Shown: in pieces, positions 14,322 to 25,511 of the stretch | Numbering within the stretch: the stretch's first letter is position 1 | Layout of the letters: the number at the start of each line of letters is the position of its first letter | Source: a virus | Strand: one strand, 5' to 3' | DNA length: 26,953 nt | Virus record (IMG/VR): IMGVR_UViG_3300044825_003206 | Coordinates: 1-26,953 of that record | Notes under the pieces: generated by a model | What the model was told of the DNA's origin: nothing | Databases searched by the model: none | Seen by the model: the letters and a program-made list of their open reading frames with translations, nothing else | Program-made: the position numbers and the translations under genes

Positions 14322-17300
14322 TCACACCGCCCGGGTACGGGCAGCGTCTAGAAGTTGCAGGAGACGCGACTCGTCGCGTGCATCGATAGAGGCCTGGACC
14401 TTGCGGTCACCAGAGGACAGCTCTACACGTACCGTGCGCGTCGGGCCACCGTCACCCGCCAGGACCGGGCGAGCCAGCGCCGAGCCTATGGGTTGCACCA
14501 GCCCGCCAGCAGCGAATCCTTGGACACCGGCCATCACGCGCCCAGCCAAGGCCTGCGCCGGAGCAGACAGGTTGTTAATCGCCTCGAAAAAGCCCGCACC
14601 GTAACGGGCAACAGCGTCCCGGTTCACGACAAACTCACCCGGGGTCAACATCGCCGGGACGGTGTCGGACTTCGACAGTCCGCCACGCCGGTAGTACTCG
14701 CCCTGGTTCTGTTCCATGTAGTCGATCAGCTCGCGTTCCAGGTCTTTGCCCCAGAGCAGCGGCTGGGCCATCGCCTGTCGCCACGTTTGCTTGATCCGCT
14801 CCAGGTTCTGGCGCTCGTTGCCAGTGAGCTGTTTGCGTCCGATGAATTCCTCCAGCGTGCGCCGATCCTGCTGCGCTTGTTTGCCGTAGTTCTCCATCGT
14901 CTTGCTGCGCATGTCCAGGCTGACCGATGCGCCGTAGTTCCACTGCAGCCAGTTGGTGTACTCGTTCATTCCCTGCAGACCCAAATCGATCATCTTCAGG
15001 GCTTCGAACGCGTCACGGTTCTTCTTTGGAGTTGTGGGTGTGCTGTCACCACTGTTGTCGGCTCCATTACCGGAAGGGCGTTTTGCGCCACCCAGCATTA
15101 CCGCGCCGCCCGTGGCGAACCGGGCCACCCCATTGGCCAGCCGCGAGAGCGCACCGCTCCCATATTTCTGCACCGCTGCCTTGCGAATCACGAAGGCACC
15201 GGCATCCAGGGTGCGCGGTACCGTGTCGTGATGGCCAGAGCCGGGCACCGAACCGCCTCCCATCCGGGGGAAGGCAGGAGCCACCGCGCCGCCGCCAGCA
15301 AAGTGCCTGACACCACCACCAACCAGGCCGCCGGTGGCATTGACCTCGACCCGCTGCACGTAGATGGTGTGCGTGCTCGAGGTGTTGGCGCCGTTCAAAC
15401 TCATGATCTCCGAACGAGCCGCTTCCGCATTGGTGCTGACCTGATGCCGAGACTCGGTCTGGATGCGATCCAGCGCCTTGATCATTCCCTCGACGTTGGT
15501 GATCGCGGCCTGCGCTTTCTCCGTGGCGACCTTGAGTTCGACCTGCGAGTTTTGCTCGGCGTAGGTCTTGAGCTTGTCGAGCGCATCTTTCGCTTTGCTG
15601 ACGTCCGCATCGACCGGCAGCGTCTTGCCCTCTTTAAGCAGTTGCTCGTACTCCTGCAGCTTCTTTTCCGCTTCCTGCAGATCGGCCTGAATCTTGAGGA
15701 GGAATTCCTTCTCTGCCAGCGCCTTGTCCAAGTCAGCGATCGCCTGATCGAAGCGGCTTTTGTCGGCATCGATCGTGACCTTCAGCCCATCCTTGAGCTT
15801 GGCCGTGATCTGGTCGATCTGTGTTTCGGTCTGCGTCAGGGTCTGCTGGATCTGCTCACGGGCCGTGATCGCCGACTGGGCGGCTTTCTGGTGCGCCGCG
15901 CTTTCTGCGTCCAGCGTCTTGTTGAGCAACTCCTCCGAGGTCCGGATGGCACCGATGGCGCCTGCCACCTCGTTCTTGCTCTGCACTGCGGCCTGATCGG
16001 CAGCCTGCGACTTCTGGGCAATCTCGGCCCGCAGGGTTTCGGCCTGCCGCATCAATTGATCGGCCGTGGCGTACTCCTGCTTGCGGTAGGCCTCGCGCGA
16101 CTGCGCTTCGAGCTGCACGACCTGGGTCATGTTTTGCTCGGATTGCTTCTTGGCATCCTCAGCGCGCTTGGCCTCATTGGTTTGCGAGGTGGCCACCTGG
16201 GCGGCCAGGTCCATGGCTTTTTGGGCCAGTTGTCGGGCCAGCTCGAGTTCGCCGTTGGCCAGGGCCTCGCGGGCCTTTTCCTGATACTCGGCGATCTGGT
16301 ACTTGCGATCTTCGTTGGCCTGGAACTCGGTCATGCCCTGACGGGCAATCTCGCGAATGCGCTCCTCTGTCGTCATCGACAACTGGCGCTTCTCGTTCTC
16401 AATGCGCTGGACTTCGGCCAAGTGCCGATTGGCTTCGGCGTTCAAGGCATCGATGTGCTGTCGGTACTCCGACAACGCCTGGGTCATGGTCTGGCGCTTG
16501 GTGGCCAGGATCTCATTTTCGACGCGGGTGACATTGGCCGACCGCTCGGATTCTGTCTGCCACTGGCGCTGGGCAGCTTCAGTGCGCGCCCGTCCCTCGT
16601 CGTCGATCAGCTTCAGCGTGGTCGTGGTTGCCTGCTGACGCAGCGTGGTTTGCTGCGTCAGCGCCTCAGTCAGCAGTTGCGTCGACTTGGTAATCAGCGC
16701 AGTTTCCGACTGGGTTTTGAGTTCCAGTGCGGTTTGTTCCTGCTGGTAGCGCGCCTTGACCGCATCGATCTGGCGCTGCAGGTTGGCCTCGACGATGCTG
16801 GTCAGCCCCTTGTAGGCATCGGCCATCTTGGCAGTCGCGTCATTGACGACCCCCTGCGCTTTTCCGACTGCCTGTTCGACTTCGCCCAAACGGGATTTCA
16901 GCTTCTCCAGTGCGCTGTGGACGGCCTCAACGCCACGCCCGACCGCCTCCTGCGTCCCCTGGCGAACGGCTTCCAGCCGCTTGGCAATCTCCTCGGCGGC
17001 GGTCGCGGCGGTATTCATCGCACCCTTGGCCGCGTCCGCTCCCTTGGATGCGTCAGCGTACATCTGGCCGAAGATCTGGTTCATCTCAGCGAGCCGCTGC
17101 TCGTGGCGCTTGGTGGCCTGCTCGATGGTGTCGGAGGTGAATACCGCTTTGAAGACTTCCCAGCGGTACTGCAACTGCTCGATGCCTTTCATTAGCATCT
17201 CGACCATGAAGATGCCTGCCTTGCGGACGACCTCGAATTTCTCGGACAACCACGTTCCGATCTCCCAGCCCACCAGGAAGGCACCCAGCACAGCGAACGC

Positions 17301-18377
17301 CGTCTTGAGTACGCCCACGCTGGCCACGGCTGCTGACACCGACAGATTCGCCGTCGCCCACGCAGCCGAGGTAGCACTGGCTGCAGCTATGGCTGCCGCG
17401 CCGGCGGTCTGCCAAGCGGTGATCAGCGCCGGGATCAGGCGATAGATCAGTACGGCCAGACCGACTTCAGCGATGCGCTTTAACCACTGCATCACCGTGT
17501 CGAGGTTCTGCGCCAGCCATGTCAGAGCCTCGGCCAGCTTCTTGGTAAAGCCGGTCGACTCGTCGAGTCTGCTGACCCACTGCCCGAAGGCATTGCGCAG
17601 GCGCTCAAAAGCTTGGCTCACCGTGGCTGGCAGCTGGGCGTATTCGCTGGCCAGCTTGTCCTTCTGGCTCATCAAGGCATTGACCACCACATCGGCAGTC
17701 AGACGACCTTCCTCAGCCAGCTTGCGCAGCCGCCCGATCGGCACGTTCAGGCCATCGGCCAGAGCCTGCGCCAGACGGGGGCTGTTCTCGACGACGGAGT
17801 TGAATTCCTCGCCGCGCAGCACGCCCGACGCCAGGGCCTGACCGAACTGCAGCAGGGACGACTGCGCTTCAGTGGCCGATGCACCGGAAAGACGCAACGC
17901 CTGCGAGATGCTTTCGGTGATCGTGAGCGCGTCCTTTTGCTCGCCACCCAGCATCCGCACCGCCTGCTGCAGCTTGCCGTACAGCGTGGCGGTTTCCTGG
18001 ATCGGCACGCCGATGCGCTGGGCGATGTCAAACAGCTCCTTTTGGGCGACGGCGTACTCACGCTGGCCAGCGGTAGCCAGCTTCAGGCGCGCGGACATCA
18101 TGTTCCATGCGTCGGCGATCTGGACGATCTCCTGCACCTTGCCTGCTGCCCAATTGATCGACAGGAAAGCCAGTAGCTGCGTCTTGGCAGTCGCCACTTG
18201 ATCGCCAAAGGCCGACATTCCTGCCTTGACCTCGGCCATCCCAGCGGCTGCCTTCTCACCAGCGGTCTTGGCGGTGCTTGAGAGCTCGCCGAGACTGCGC
18301 TCGGCAGACGCGATGGCGCGCTTAAGCCCCTCGTCGGCCCCTTCGAGTGCGACGAGGACGGAAATTCGGTTCGCCAT
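14322..18377 (-). CDS. Tail tape measure protein
   Basis: A 1351-residue protein that sets tail length and is ejected with the DNA. The N-terminal 60-270 region matches the tape measure N-terminal domain (AWNMMSARLKLATAG, ETATLYGKLQQAV, LASGVLRGEEFNSVVENSPR, LPATVSQAFERLRNAFGQW). Residues about 304-376 are strongly hydrophobic and can span membranes. Residues about 430-1000 are long coiled coil, rich in Gln, Glu, Lys and Ala. Near the C-terminus two Gly-rich segments each carry DTVP..L..G.FV(I/V)(R/N)..AV..YG.G, a repeated element of tape measure proteins. By the usual relation of about 0.15 nm per residue, this protein predicts a tail near 200 nm, longer than lambda's. It follows the frameshifted chaperone and DUF6441-like genes, as in other siphoviruses. 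Confidence 0.95.
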   Translation of the reverse strand: MANRISVLVALEGADEGLKRAIASAERSLGELSSTAKTAGEKAAAGMAEVKAGMSAFGDQVATAKTQLLAFLSINWAAGKVQEIVQIADAWNMMSARLKLATAGQREYAVAQKELFDIAQRIGVPIQETATLYGKLQQAVRMLGGEQKDALTITESISQALRLSGASATEAQSSLLQFGQALASGVLRGEEFNSVVENSPRLAQALADGLNVPIGRLRKLAEEGRLTADVVVNALMSQKDKLASEYAQLPATVSQAFERLRNAFGQWVSRLDESTGFTKKLAEALTWLAQNLDTVMQWLKRIAEVGLAVLIYRLIPALITAWQTAGAAAIAAASATSAAWATANLSVSAAVASVGVLKTAFAVLGAFLVGWEIGTWLSEKFEVVRKAGIFMVEMLMKGIEQLQYRWEVFKAVFTSDTIEQATKRHEQRLAEMNQIFGQMYADASKGADAAKGAMNTAATAAEEIAKRLEAVRQGTQEAVGRGVEAVHSALEKLKSRLGEVEQAVGKAQGVVNDATAKMADAYKGLTSIVEANLQRQIDAVKARYQQEQTALELKTQSETALITKSTQLLTEALTQQTTLRQQATTTTLKLIDDEGRARTEAAQRQWQTESERSANVTRVENEILATKRQTMTQALSEYRQHIDALNAEANRHLAEVQRIENEKRQLSMTTEERIREIARQGMTEFQANEDRKYQIAEYQEKAREALANGELELARQLAQKAMDLAAQVATSQTNEAKRAEDAKKQSEQNMTQVVQLEAQSREAYRKQEYATADQLMRQAETLRAEIAQKSQAADQAAVQSKNEVAGAIGAIRTSEELLNKTLDAESAAHQKAAQSAITAREQIQQTLTQTETQIDQITAKLKDGLKVTIDADKSRFDQAIADLDKALAEKEFLLKIQADLQEAEKKLQEYEQLLKEGKTLPVDADVSKAKDALDKLKTYAEQNSQVELKVATEKAQAAITNVEGMIKALDRIQTESRHQVSTNAEAARSEIMSLNGANTSSTHTIYVQRVEVNATGGLVGGGVRHFAGGGAVAPAFPRMGGGSVPGSGHHDTVPRTLDAGAFVIRKAAVQKYGSGALSRLANGVARFATGGAVMLGGAKRPSGNGADNSGDSTPTTPKKNRDAFEALKMIDLGLQGMNEYTNWLQWNYGASVSLDMRSKTMENYGKQAQQDRRTLEEFIGRKQLTGNERQNLERIKQTWRQAMAQPLLWGKDLERELIDYMEQNQGEYYRRGGLSKSDTVPAMLTPGEFVVNRDAVARYGAGFFEAINNLSAPAQALAGRVMAGVQGFAAGGLVQPIGSALARPVLAGDGGPTRTVRVELSSGDRKVQASIDARDESRLLQLLDAARTRAV

Positions 18378-18380
18378 GAC

Positions 18381-19025
18381 TCAACTCACCGTCCGGATCT
18401 GCTTCTCGATAGCCGACGACAGGCGCGGGATGCGGCCCGCGACCAGACGTTCGACATCGAGGCGCTTCTTGAGCACGACCTTGGGCACCAGGACGGCAAT
18501 CGGAATGTCCGCACCGCGTTTGAGGCGCTTGATGCCCTCGGCTTTGCGATAGCGGCGCTTAAAGCCTGCCAGTGGCCGGTCGTGTTCCTTGATGTTTTCG
18601 GCCATGAGGACGATATTCCCCTTTGCGTTCTTGATGAAATAGGCATTGCCGCCACGCATTAGCTCGGTGATCTGCGCCTTGAAACGTCTCCTGCCGACAC
18701 GCCCGTGCAGCGGGATCAGCATCCGACTGGCGATCAAGCCCCCACGCTCGTGCATCCCCGACCATGGAATCCGCGAACCCACGTACAGCGCGGGCAGGCG
18801 GTTCGGGTCTTTATTCAGCACCTTGGCGGTGAAGCCTTTGAGGAAGGACTTCTTGACCACCGCCATCTGGCCTGCGACGTGGCCGCGCACGTCCTGTTTG
18901 AGCTCGGACGCTTCGCTGGCAATGGCCCGCGACACGGCCTTCTTGACCTTGTCTCGGAACTCGCCACCCCAACGGCGCAGTTGCGCCTGCGCTGCTGAAC
19001 TATTGATGCGGACGGAGATGCGCAT
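18381..19025 (-). CDS. DUF6441-like phage protein (putative neck/tail completion)
   Basis: A 214-residue protein, very basic, starting MRISVRINSSAAQAQLRRWG and containing VKKAVSRAIASEASELKQDV, a PWSGMHERGG stretch and a Lys/Arg-rich C-terminal half ending RLSSAIEKQIRTVS. The pattern resembles DUF6441 proteins and, more remotely, HK97 gp10-type neck proteins. Start ATG at 19025 is preferred to the open-frame start at 19151: the earlier stretch lies wholly within the frameshift extension of the tail chaperone and its reading is Arg/Pro/Ser-rich and non-descript. The first 26 bases overlap the end of that extension. It sits between the chaperone and the tape measure. A role in tail completion is inferred. 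Confidence 0.78.
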   Translation of the reverse strand: MRISVRINSSAAQAQLRRWGGEFRDKVKKAVSRAIASEASELKQDVRGHVAGQMAVVKKSFLKGFTAKVLNKDPNRLPALYVGSRIPWSGMHERGGLIASRMLIPLHGRVGRRRFKAQITELMRGGNAYFIKNAKGNIVLMAENIKEHDRPLAGFKRRYRKAEGIKRLKRGADIPIAVLVPKVVLKKRLDVERLVAGRIPRLSSAIEKQIRTVS

Positions 19026-19601
19026 GGTCGGTGAGCCTGTCGAGGGTCTGGTCGAGATGGCGGGCATCGCTACGCGTGCCGATGGCGACGAGCGATAGCA
19101 ACCGCGCGTCGCGGGCTGCGTCGGTGCGCGCCATGGCGGCAACGAAGCCACGCACCTGCGCCAGGGTGTAGTCGAGGATGTCGGGCAGACGGTGGCCGTG
19201 CTCGATCAGGTACTGGACGGTGTCAAACCAGCCGCCATCACGGGTGCCAGCTTCGTTTGCGCGAACAGGCCGTCGAGCTTGGGTATCACCGTCCGCGTAA
19301 AAAAATCGGCGTTCACCTCGATTACCTTGGCCGCGAGCAGGATGGCCTGGTCAGCTTCTAGTCCGTCGACCCATGCGCGAGGTTTACCAACCGCGATGGC
19401 GATGGCCGACAGCAAGTCATCTCCGCGCTCACCAAACAGCGCCAGCCAGTCGATGTCCGAGGCGCTGAGCTGCTGCATCACCGGCGAGATTGCCCGCAGG
19501 AAAGGGGGCATCTGCCCTACCTTCAGCGGCTTGATAGCCAGCGGCTCGCCATCGATGACCAGTTCGACCGCCTGCGGAATCAGGGCATCCAGATCACTCA
19601 T
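19000..19601 (-). CDS. Tail assembly chaperone G-T fusion by -1 ribosomal frameshift
   Basis: At the run of seven T (19305-19299 on the minus strand) a ribosome slipping back one base leaves the G frame after residue 101 and reads 99 more codons to TAG at 19002-19000, giving 200 residues. The added part is stop-free and protein-like: GWFDTVQYLIEHGHRLPDIL, then DYTLAQVRGFVAAMARTDAA, and ends before the DUF6441-like start. This ILDYTLAQVR-type segment is what one expects of the T part of a tail chaperone. The fusion would coat the tape measure during tube assembly with a few copies per tail, the short G form being the majority. This is the siphovirus G/GT scheme; the sequence shows the site and frame, not the shift itself. 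Confidence 0.82.
19206..19601 (-). CDS. Tail assembly chaperone, short form (G-like)
   Basis: A 131-residue acidic protein (MSDLDALIPQAVELVIDGEP, then LAIKPLKVGQMPPFLRAISP, and AWVDGLEADQAILLAAKVIE) of the tail assembly chaperone type, found between the tail tube and tape measure genes. It would bind the tape measure protein and recruit tube subunits. ATG at 19601 has GAGGGG seven bases upstream; an alternative GTG at 19616 overlaps the tail tube stop and has no such site. The stop is TGA at 19208-19206. The final 30 residues are replaced when the ribosome shifts at the T run at codons 100-101. Confidence 0.88.
   Translation of the reverse strand: MSDLDALIPQAVELVIDGEPLAIKPLKVGQMPPFLRAISPVMQQLSASDIDWLALFGERGDDLLSAIAIAVGKPRAWVDGLEADQAILLAAKVIEVNADFFTRTVIPKLDGLFAQTKLAPVMAAGLTPSST
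19299..19319 (-). promoter_or_regulatory. Slippery heptamer T TTT TTT with upstream Shine-Dalgarno-like element
   Basis: On the minus strand the zero-frame codons are GAT TTT TTT ACG, so T TTT TTT (19305-19299) allows both tRNA-Phe to re-pair one base back. GAGGTGA (19319-19313), a good match to the anti-Shine-Dalgarno sequence, lies seven bases upstream. An internal Shine-Dalgarno at about this distance stimulates -1 shifting in dnaX. A downstream hairpin was not worked out. Confidence 0.8.
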
Positions 19602-19612
19602 GGCTGTTCCCC

Positions 19613-20365
19613 TCACAGTTGGACGATACGGCCGAACTGCCCAAGCACCGCATCAAAAGGTTTGGTGGTATCGGCCAGCAGCGAGCCCTCCAGCTCGAAC
19701 TTGTTGTACTCGTCCGAGATGAAGGAGATTTCCTTCAGAGGATCGAAGGCCACACGGTACAACTCGACCAGCACCTTGGCGTTGCCCTGCGCCGTGTTGA
19801 TGCCCTCCAAGCGCAGGTAACGCTCAGGCAGCGCCTGGGTGAAGATGCCGATCTCGGTGGCGATGCCATAGGCATAGCTGGCCTTGAACGGTGCGGTCAG
19901 TCCGGTGGTGTCCAGGAATTGGACGGCACCAAAGTCCAGATCGGCGGTGTAGTGCGTGCCGGCGGTCAGTGTGGCCGGCGTGCCTGCTGAATCCGTGACC
20001 ACCAGGCTCGACACCTTGGGGTGGGCCAGGAAGTAGCGGTCGCCCGGGGTCGGGGTGGCGCCACCAATAGGTTCGGCGGTCACCGTACCCGGCGTGCCGA
20101 CGACATGGTTGCCGTAAAGGGCCAGAGCGAGGTTTTCTTTGGTGAACTCCTCGATGGTCAGGTTCACCGTGGCCGACTTCTGTTTGACCATGCGGTGGTC
20201 CAGCGAACGCTGACCGGTCTGGCTCTCGTAGTGCTCCAGCACATCGGTTTTGAGAGACAGTTTGAGTTCGGCTACGTTGCCTGGCGAGCGGACTTCGATC
20301 GGCAAGCCAGCCGTGTTACGTTTGCCGAGAAAGACGCGGCCTTGGAATGAAGCGTAGGTGCTCAT
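19613..20365 (-). CDS. Major tail (tube) protein
   Basis: A 250-residue protein of the long-tail tube class. It begins MSTYASFQGRVFLGKRNTAG, followed by VRSPGNVAELKLSLKTDVLE and TVNLTIEEFTKENLALALYG, the typical tube-protein N-terminal half. Then come GTHYTADLDFGAVQFLD and a C-terminal half ending KFELEGSLLADTTKPFDAVL. The tube is built of hexameric rings of this protein. Position fits: after the tail terminator and before the chaperone/tape measure genes. Start ATG at 20365 overlaps the preceding 62-residue gene by ATGA. It lacks an obvious extra C-terminal Ig-like domain such as lambda V has. Confidence 0.88.
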   Translation of the reverse strand: MSTYASFQGRVFLGKRNTAGLPIEVRSPGNVAELKLSLKTDVLEHYESQTGQRSLDHRMVKQKSATVNLTIEEFTKENLALALYGNHVVGTPGTVTAEPIGGATPTPGDRYFLAHPKVSSLVVTDSAGTPATLTAGTHYTADLDFGAVQFLDTTGLTAPFKASYAYGIATEIGIFTQALPERYLRLEGINTAQGNAKVLVELYRVAFDPLKEISFISDEYNKFELEGSLLADTTKPFDAVLGQFGRIVQL

Positions 20366-23999: not shown

Positions 24000-25511
24000 T
24001 CAGACAGGAGGTGCGCTTGTCACTGGATCAATCGGTGCAGCGTTTTTGTTCGGCTCTGCACTACCGCCATCCTTGGATGTGCGACGTGGGTCGGAATCGA
24101 AGATCAGTCCCAGGTCGTCGGCACGCTGGTTGTCAGCCGCTATCTCGCGGTCTACGTCCTCGGCGTCATAGCCAAACGCCGAGATGGCTTCCGAGCGGCT
24201 CATCAAGCCCGCACGGATGGCAAGCAACATGGCCTTGAACTCTTTTTCTGGGTCGACCCATTGCCAGCCCTGCGGAATCCACTTGACCTGCAGGTACTGG
24301 CGCCGCTTAGCCGCTCCACCTCGGGCAAATCCAGGTGCTTCGATGGCGCCGGCTAGCACCGCCTGCTTGAGCCAGGCAGCCCAGACCGGACGACACAGCT
24401 GGTGCACCAGAACGCTGTGCTGGACCATCTCGCAACGGCGCCGGAACTCGAGCAGACCGGCCCGGATGCTGGAGTAGTTCACCCCAGTCAAATCCCCGGT
24501 GAGTTGCTCATAGGTCACGCCGATCGCAGCCGCGACCGCCCGGAACTGGTTGCGCAGGAAATCGGAGTACGACCCACCCACATCGGCGGGGTCGGAGAAC
24601 TTGATGTCCTCCCCTGGCTCCAGGATCTGCAGCGTGCCCGGCTCCAAACCGGCCAAGGCGATCCCGTTGGCGTCGGCCGCGCCTTCGCCCATCAGGTTGT
24701 CCTCGGGGTTCTGGCGCGTGACGAACCCGGCGAACATGGCTGCGGTTTTTTTGCGGACCAGTTCTGCGTCGTCGTACTGGTCGAGTTCGTTGAGTTTGAC
24801 CAGGGCGCGCGACAGCCAAGGTTCCCCCCGGATCTGGCCTGGGCGCAGTACGCGATAGAGATGGATGATCTCTTTGGCGTCGATGCGCACGGTATCCAAG
24901 CCCCCCTGGCCGGACATCGGCGCCAGCCGCCCGTCTTCAGGATGGGATTTGTAGAGGTGATAGGCGACGCGCCGCCCCAGACTGTCGAACTCGATACCGG
25001 CACGCACCACGTTGCCAGACGGCAATTCAGTGTTGAGATTGATCGGCAGGTGCTCTGCCTCGAGCAATTGCAGTTGCAGCGGCACAACCAGACCATCCTC
25101 TGGCCGGCGGGGACGCAAACGAATAAAGCATTCGCCCCCTTCGAGCATGGCCCGACATGCCAGCGCTTGCAGACCGTAGAAGTCGGTCTGACCGGCGGCA
25201 TCGGCCTCTGCAGTCCAATCACGCCACAGTGCCTGCACCTCAGTTTTGAAGCGCTCGTCGCTGGCCAGGCTTTGTGGCTTGATGCCGGTGCCGACTGCAT
25301 TGGCAACGAAGGCCTCGATGCCCGACTGGGCCCAGGCATTGCGTCGCACCAGGTCGCGGCTCTTGATACGCAGGTCGCTGCTGGTGGCCAGTAGTGCGGC
25401 CACCGCTCCGGGGTTGCCGGGCATCCATGCCAGCGAGCGGCGACCACGACCTGCCGCATCGTGGATCGGTGGCTGGCCAAACAGGGTTCGGAATTTGGAG
25501 TACCAAGCCAT
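24000..25511 (-). CDS. Portal protein (lambda gpB family)
   Basis: A 503-residue protein, near lambda gpB's 533, forming the dodecameric portal ring. Family marks are SRDLVRRNAWAQSGIEAFVA, NAVGTGIKPQS, MLEGGECFIRLRPRR, LQLLEAEHLP, EIIHLYRVLRPGQIRGEPWL and the C-terminal WIPQGWQWVDPEKEFKAMLL. ATG at 25511 makes a TGATG overlap with gpW and has AAGGGG five bases upstream; an open frame to 25562 lies inside gpW. The C-terminal 35 residues are polar and look disordered. Next gene in order is the protease, which may trim the portal N-terminus as in lambda. Confidence 0.94.
   Translation of the reverse strand: MAWYSKFRTLFGQPPIHDAAGRGRRSLAWMPGNPGAVAALLATSSDLRIKSRDLVRRNAWAQSGIEAFVANAVGTGIKPQSLASDERFKTEVQALWRDWTAEADAAGQTDFYGLQALACRAMLEGGECFIRLRPRRPEDGLVVPLQLQLLEAEHLPINLNTELPSGNVVRAGIEFDSLGRRVAYHLYKSHPEDGRLAPMSGQGGLDTVRIDAKEIIHLYRVLRPGQIRGEPWLSRALVKLNELDQYDDAELVRKKTAAMFAGFVTRQNPEDNLMGEGAADANGIALAGLEPGTLQILEPGEDIKFSDPADVGGSYSDFLRNQFRAVAAAIGVTYEQLTGDLTGVNYSSIRAGLLEFRRRCEMVQHSVLVHQLCRPVWAAWLKQAVLAGAIEAPGFARGGAAKRRQYLQVKWIPQGWQWVDPEKEFKAMLLAIRAGLMSRSEAISAFGYDAEDVDREIAADNQRADDLGLIFDSDPRRTSKDGGSAEPNKNAAPIDPVTSAPPV

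Follow-up and report, generated by a model that had tools for sequence, protein, structure and literature searches.

A conserved T_TTT_TTT heptamer predicts a programmed -1 frameshift in the G/GT tail assembly chaperone gene of a previously unannotated phage

Results

Gene organization around the tail assembly chaperone

The window analysed here is a stretch of 26,953 nucleotides from the virus record IMGVR_UViG_3300044825_003206, with a GC content of 63%. Tail genes are encoded on the minus strand in the order tail tube (phrog_807), G/T, DUF6441 and tape measure (TMP_3), DUF6441 being the one extra gene before the tape measure gene. The features are as follows.

19613..20365, minus strand: major tail (tube) protein with an Ig-like domain, upstream of G (phrog_807, E 2.2e-81)
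19608..19614, minus strand: GAGGGGA, likely ribosome-binding site of G (sequence reading)
19206..19601, minus strand: G, tail assembly chaperone, zero-frame product of 131 aa (phrog_1442)
19313..19319, minus strand: probable stimulator, an internal Shine-Dalgarno (SD)-like GAGGTGA separated from the T run by 7 nt (anti-SD match)
19299..19305, minus strand: slippery heptamer T_TTT_TTT at codons 100-101 (Phe-Phe) of G (sequence and conservation)
19000..19299, minus strand: T part, read in the -1 frame, with 99 codons followed by TAG (phrog matches, codon-position variability, cross-clade alignment)
19000..19601, minus strand: predicted GT fusion of 200 aa, join 19601-19299 + 19299-19000 (frame geometry, phrog_14432)
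18381..19025, minus strand: DUF6441 protein, downstream neighbour (PF20039, E 7.1e-80)
14322..18377, minus strand: tape measure protein, 1351 aa (PF20155 TMP_3, E 1.8e-65; phrog_8010, E 0)

The G frame runs from ATG at 19601 to TGA at 19208-19206, and its codons 99-102 read GAT TTT TTT ACG. The T7 run at 19305-19299 lies within the overlap of G and T and is phased T_TTT_TTT, as in a canonical X_XXY_YYZ heptamer. A slip of -1 at this run opens a frame of 99 codons from 19299 to TAG at 19002-19000, and the predicted peptide across the junction of the fusion is VIEVNADFFYADGDTQAR. The codons, the run and the extent of the -1 frame had been given in an earlier note on this DNA and proved exact to the base. 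The previous stop in the T frame is TGA at 19353-19351, and the first possible start codon (ATG, GTG or TTG) in the frame is a GTG with 51 codons left to the end. T thus lacks a start of its own, and production of the full T part needs a change of frame. The T span had also been described as free of other genes. This holds for most of its length, but the last 26 nt overlap the start of the DUF6441 gene (ATG 19025). Among the loci fetched for the clade, 118 contained the DUF6441 gene, which lay directly after T among the matches listed. A tblastn search of its protein against the phage record collection gave no match.

The T frame encodes a conserved chaperone part

G was matched over residues 1-130 by phrog_1442 (tail assembly chaperone, E 2.4e-32). 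The T part matched phrog_13355 (E 1.1e-21) and phrog_14432 (E 3.9e-8), and phrog_14432 spans both halves of the GT fusion (residues 48-189, E 7.1e-12). A Pfam search of the T part matched no family. Predicted models of G and T were of moderate confidence (pLDDT 72 and 75) with no significant PDB match, and nothing significant was obtained when solved structures and viral models were searched by sequence and by fold.

The openness of the T frame was considered as evidence and rejected, as the frame also stayed open in 15% of shuffles that preserve the dinucleotides of this span, and a frame of 99 codons is thus not significant. On the other hand, variability in the T-only region beyond the G stop was 0.17, 0.10 and 0.37 at T-frame codon positions 1, 2 and 3, which is the signature of a translated frame. 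Together with the two phrog families and the conservation of the protein, this bears out the earlier proposal that the extension is a genuine chaperone T part. Sequence conservation, and not the length of the open frame, is the decisive evidence for the predicted frameshift.

Conservation of the slip site in close relatives

We gathered 119 relatives with both halves from viral contigs and bacterial genomes. In 116 of the 119, T_TTT_TTT or, in a few cases, T_TTT_TTC stands at nt 296 of G, and another relative (L079) has the slip heptamer at an offset of 9 nt. The two exceptions are a sequence masked by N's at the slip site (L094) and one with six T's (L105). Apart from these, no relative had lost the T run while keeping both frames, so that the run and the frame relation, whose conservation the earlier note had proposed to check, are kept among related prophages. 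The two exceptions are prophage copies in one MAG assembly (CP059256.1); in the copy with six T's the frame relation is changed and the G frame is truncated, possibly owing to a sequencing (homopolymer) error or to decay of the copy. The hosts of the relatives are nearly all Burkholderiales or Xanthomonadales-type. A near-identical tail module was also seen in a contig labelled Myxococcota (L089, a MAG), reflecting either a binning error or wide spread.

Codon usage at the site was examined in 75 dereplicated sequences. GAT was found in 75/75, the first TTT in 75/75 and the second TTT in 74/75, whereas Phe codons in the rest of G comprised 109 TTC and 28 TTT (80% TTC), and other conserved Asp columns in G used mixed codons. 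As a control, the only other 7-base homopolymer in the window, an A7, was kept in 1 of 38 relatives. This run lies in the portal gene (24746-24752, minus strand), reads CGC AAA AAA ACC, which is not the phase of a canonical -1 site, and corresponds to AAG AAG in most relatives. A sliding 5-codon test for synonymous conservation in G gave 0.166 and as a window fell short of the 95% limit of 0.175; the signal was concentrated in the single codons Glu95, Asp99, Phe100 and Phe101.

The slip site and the T part in diverged phages

The site was also present at homologous codons of G in phages with about 20-30% identity in this protein, whose -1 frames are open for about 78-99 codons. The heptamer is T_TTT_TTT in Stenotrophomonas phages DLP5, DLP3 and Summit, T_TTT_TTC in Pseudomonas phages pAN, phi2, TC7 and PotUPM1 and in some forty pAN-like contigs, and T_TTT_TTG in Stenotrophomonas phage QH16. 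In the family alignment of G, N97 and F100 do not vary. The T parts can be aligned from clade to clade around W..xVQxLI.HGH...YTL.Q, with W24, L31, G35 and Q48 invariant. In the Summit record the join bears the annotation 'tape measure chaperone frameshift product', and a literature search for a paper on the Summit frameshift found none. The fusion is unannotated in the records of DLP5, DLP3, QH16, phi2, TC7, pAN and PotUPM1, in keeping with the earlier statement that annotation from open reading frames alone misses the 200-aa GT product.

An SD-like element upstream of the slip site

The earlier note had placed an SD-like GAGGTGA seven bases upstream of the T run and suggested that it stimulates the shift. 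Its position was exact. No other site in G matches the anti-SD sequence as strongly as GAGGTGA (-11.5 kcal/mol), which is fixed in the clade of the window; when seven other genes were scanned, only 0.04% of their windows reached this strength. No ATG, GTG or TTG stands at initiation distance downstream of it. SD-like elements that act in -1 frameshifting have been reported at a spacing of 9-14 nt before the shift site (PMC5009743), and the GAGGT core, which ends 9 nt before the run, falls inside this range.

Taking these features together, we lean towards a role of GAGGTGA in stimulating the predicted frameshift, by a modest degree over an even chance. The competing explanation, that the slip at T7 is real and GAGGTGA is mere Glu-Val coding sequence with no stimulating role, is rather less than evenly probable. 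Glu-Val is conserved as protein in the clade, the codon of Val96 is free to vary between GTG and GTC in relatives, and a second anti-SD-like stretch, GGTGATC, stands just upstream in many relatives and would compete. Moreover, the Summit/DLP5 clade keeps the slip site, and an anti-SD scan of that clade found the SD-like element absent (-4.2 kcal/mol). A stimulating role is plausible. Coding constraint does not readily account for Glu95, however, which is encoded by GAG in 74 of 75 sequences, compared with 37-80% GAG at other conserved Glu columns, and the strength of the anti-SD match and its agreement with the published spacing also speak for the stimulator.

Downstream RNA structure

Single-sequence folding revealed no excess of stability downstream of the slip site over shuffled sequences (z 0.22). 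A search for covarying structure downstream detected no compensatory pairs, and the RNAalifold consensus amounted to only -2.6 kcal/mol. Within 19215-19294 (minus strand), GGACGGTG follows closely on the slip site and could form a long-range stem of 8 bp with CACCGTCC, which lies about 65 nt further downstream; the match is perfect in the window and in many relatives. We rejected the stem as a stimulator; it showed no covariation, and 3' arms shuffled among the sequences paired equally well.

Ribosomal slippage and other origins of the frame change

The family match, gene order, slip site, T protein and Summit annotation strongly support the earlier proposal of a programmed -1 frameshift making G and GT. 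Judged from these sequence features, the locus is very probably a lambda-type G/GT tail assembly chaperone gene. Several points count against it: in E. coli test constructs, U_UUU_UUU is reported to be much less shift-prone than A_AAA_AAG (PMC5009743), the folding and covariation analyses support no downstream RNA structure, the SD-like element is absent in the Summit/DLP5 clade, and the models of G and T gave no significant match among solved structures.

The same frame change would result if RNA polymerase added a U at T7 and the edited mRNA were translated normally into GT. A homopolymeric T run is the right substrate for such transcriptional slippage, but runs cited for this process consist of more than 8 T's (PMC3711429), whereas the run is 7 here and six T's in several relatives, where it is followed by C or G. 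The X_XXY_YYZ phase is kept in these relatives, which argues against polymerase slippage, as ribosomal slippage requires phase and polymerase slippage does not. We therefore consider transcriptional slippage very unlikely. Two further readings, an open frame due to chance and a single gene split by a sequencing error, can be dismissed almost entirely. Common as such an open length is by chance here, more than a hundred separate contigs, as well as phages that have been isolated and sequenced, share the same -1 geometry; this conservation already contradicts both readings, and the codon-phased variability and family matches of the T frame also speak against them.

Discussion

In the mechanism that we propose, most ribosomes would read G to its end and produce the 131-aa protein. 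We infer that a minority would slip back one base with two tRNA-Phe on the UUU UUU of U_UUU_UUU, and that the slipped ribosomes would continue in the -1 frame to give the 200-aa GT. The upstream GAGGUGA probably pairs with the tail of 16S rRNA and pauses or pulls back the ribosome, which would raise the frequency of the event. By analogy with lambda, G would coat the tape measure protein and the T domain would recruit tail-tube subunits, and the ratio of G to GT would matter for tail assembly.

The arrangement resembles lambda gpG/gpGT in that overlapping frames lie between the tail tube and tape measure genes, with a -1 slip near the 3' end of G and a T domain made only as a fusion. Lambda uses a different slip heptamer. 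Unlike in lambda, a DUF6441 gene stands here between T and the tape measure gene, and T matches no Pfam family. Summit, DLP5 and DLP3 share a homologous G (phrog_1442), T_TTT_TTT at the same Phe-Phe codons and an alignable T part, but their G is only about 22% identical, they lack the SD-like element and their T directly adjoins the tape measure gene. In pAN, phi2, TC7 and PotUPM1 the position and phase of the slip are the same and the -1 frame is open for 78-88 codons, whereas their slip sequence is T_TTT_TTC and their records carry no annotated fusion.

In Bacillus phage SPP1, gp17.5 and gp17.5* also form a pair of tail chaperones, for which a -1 shift at UUUUUUC is putative (PMC6316719). 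E. coli dnaX has an upstream SD-like stimulator at a comparable spacing (PMC5009743), but differs in its A_AAA_AAG slip, its downstream stem-loop and its shorter frameshift product.

The slippery sequence is not new, as U-run heptamers of tail chaperones are already on record in SPP1 (PMC6316719) and in the Summit annotation. Our results thus point to an ordinary G/GT programmed -1 frameshift, well known in principle, in a phage that was previously unannotated. They matter for annotation, in which gene calls based on open reading frames alone miss the 200-aa GT product, as has happened in several deposited relatives.

A more specific proposal, that this mostly Burkholderiales prophage clade combines a weak U_UUU_UUU with an internal SD stimulator and uses no downstream RNA structure, falls just short of an even chance in our estimation. 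If true, U_UUU_UUU with an SD element would constitute a minimal SD-driven -1 signal in a tail chaperone, whose gain or loss separates clades within a single chaperone family. The natural series of U_UUU_UUU, U_UUU_UUC and U_UUU_UUG, with and without the SD element, could show how tailed phages tune the ratios of their tail assembly chaperones.
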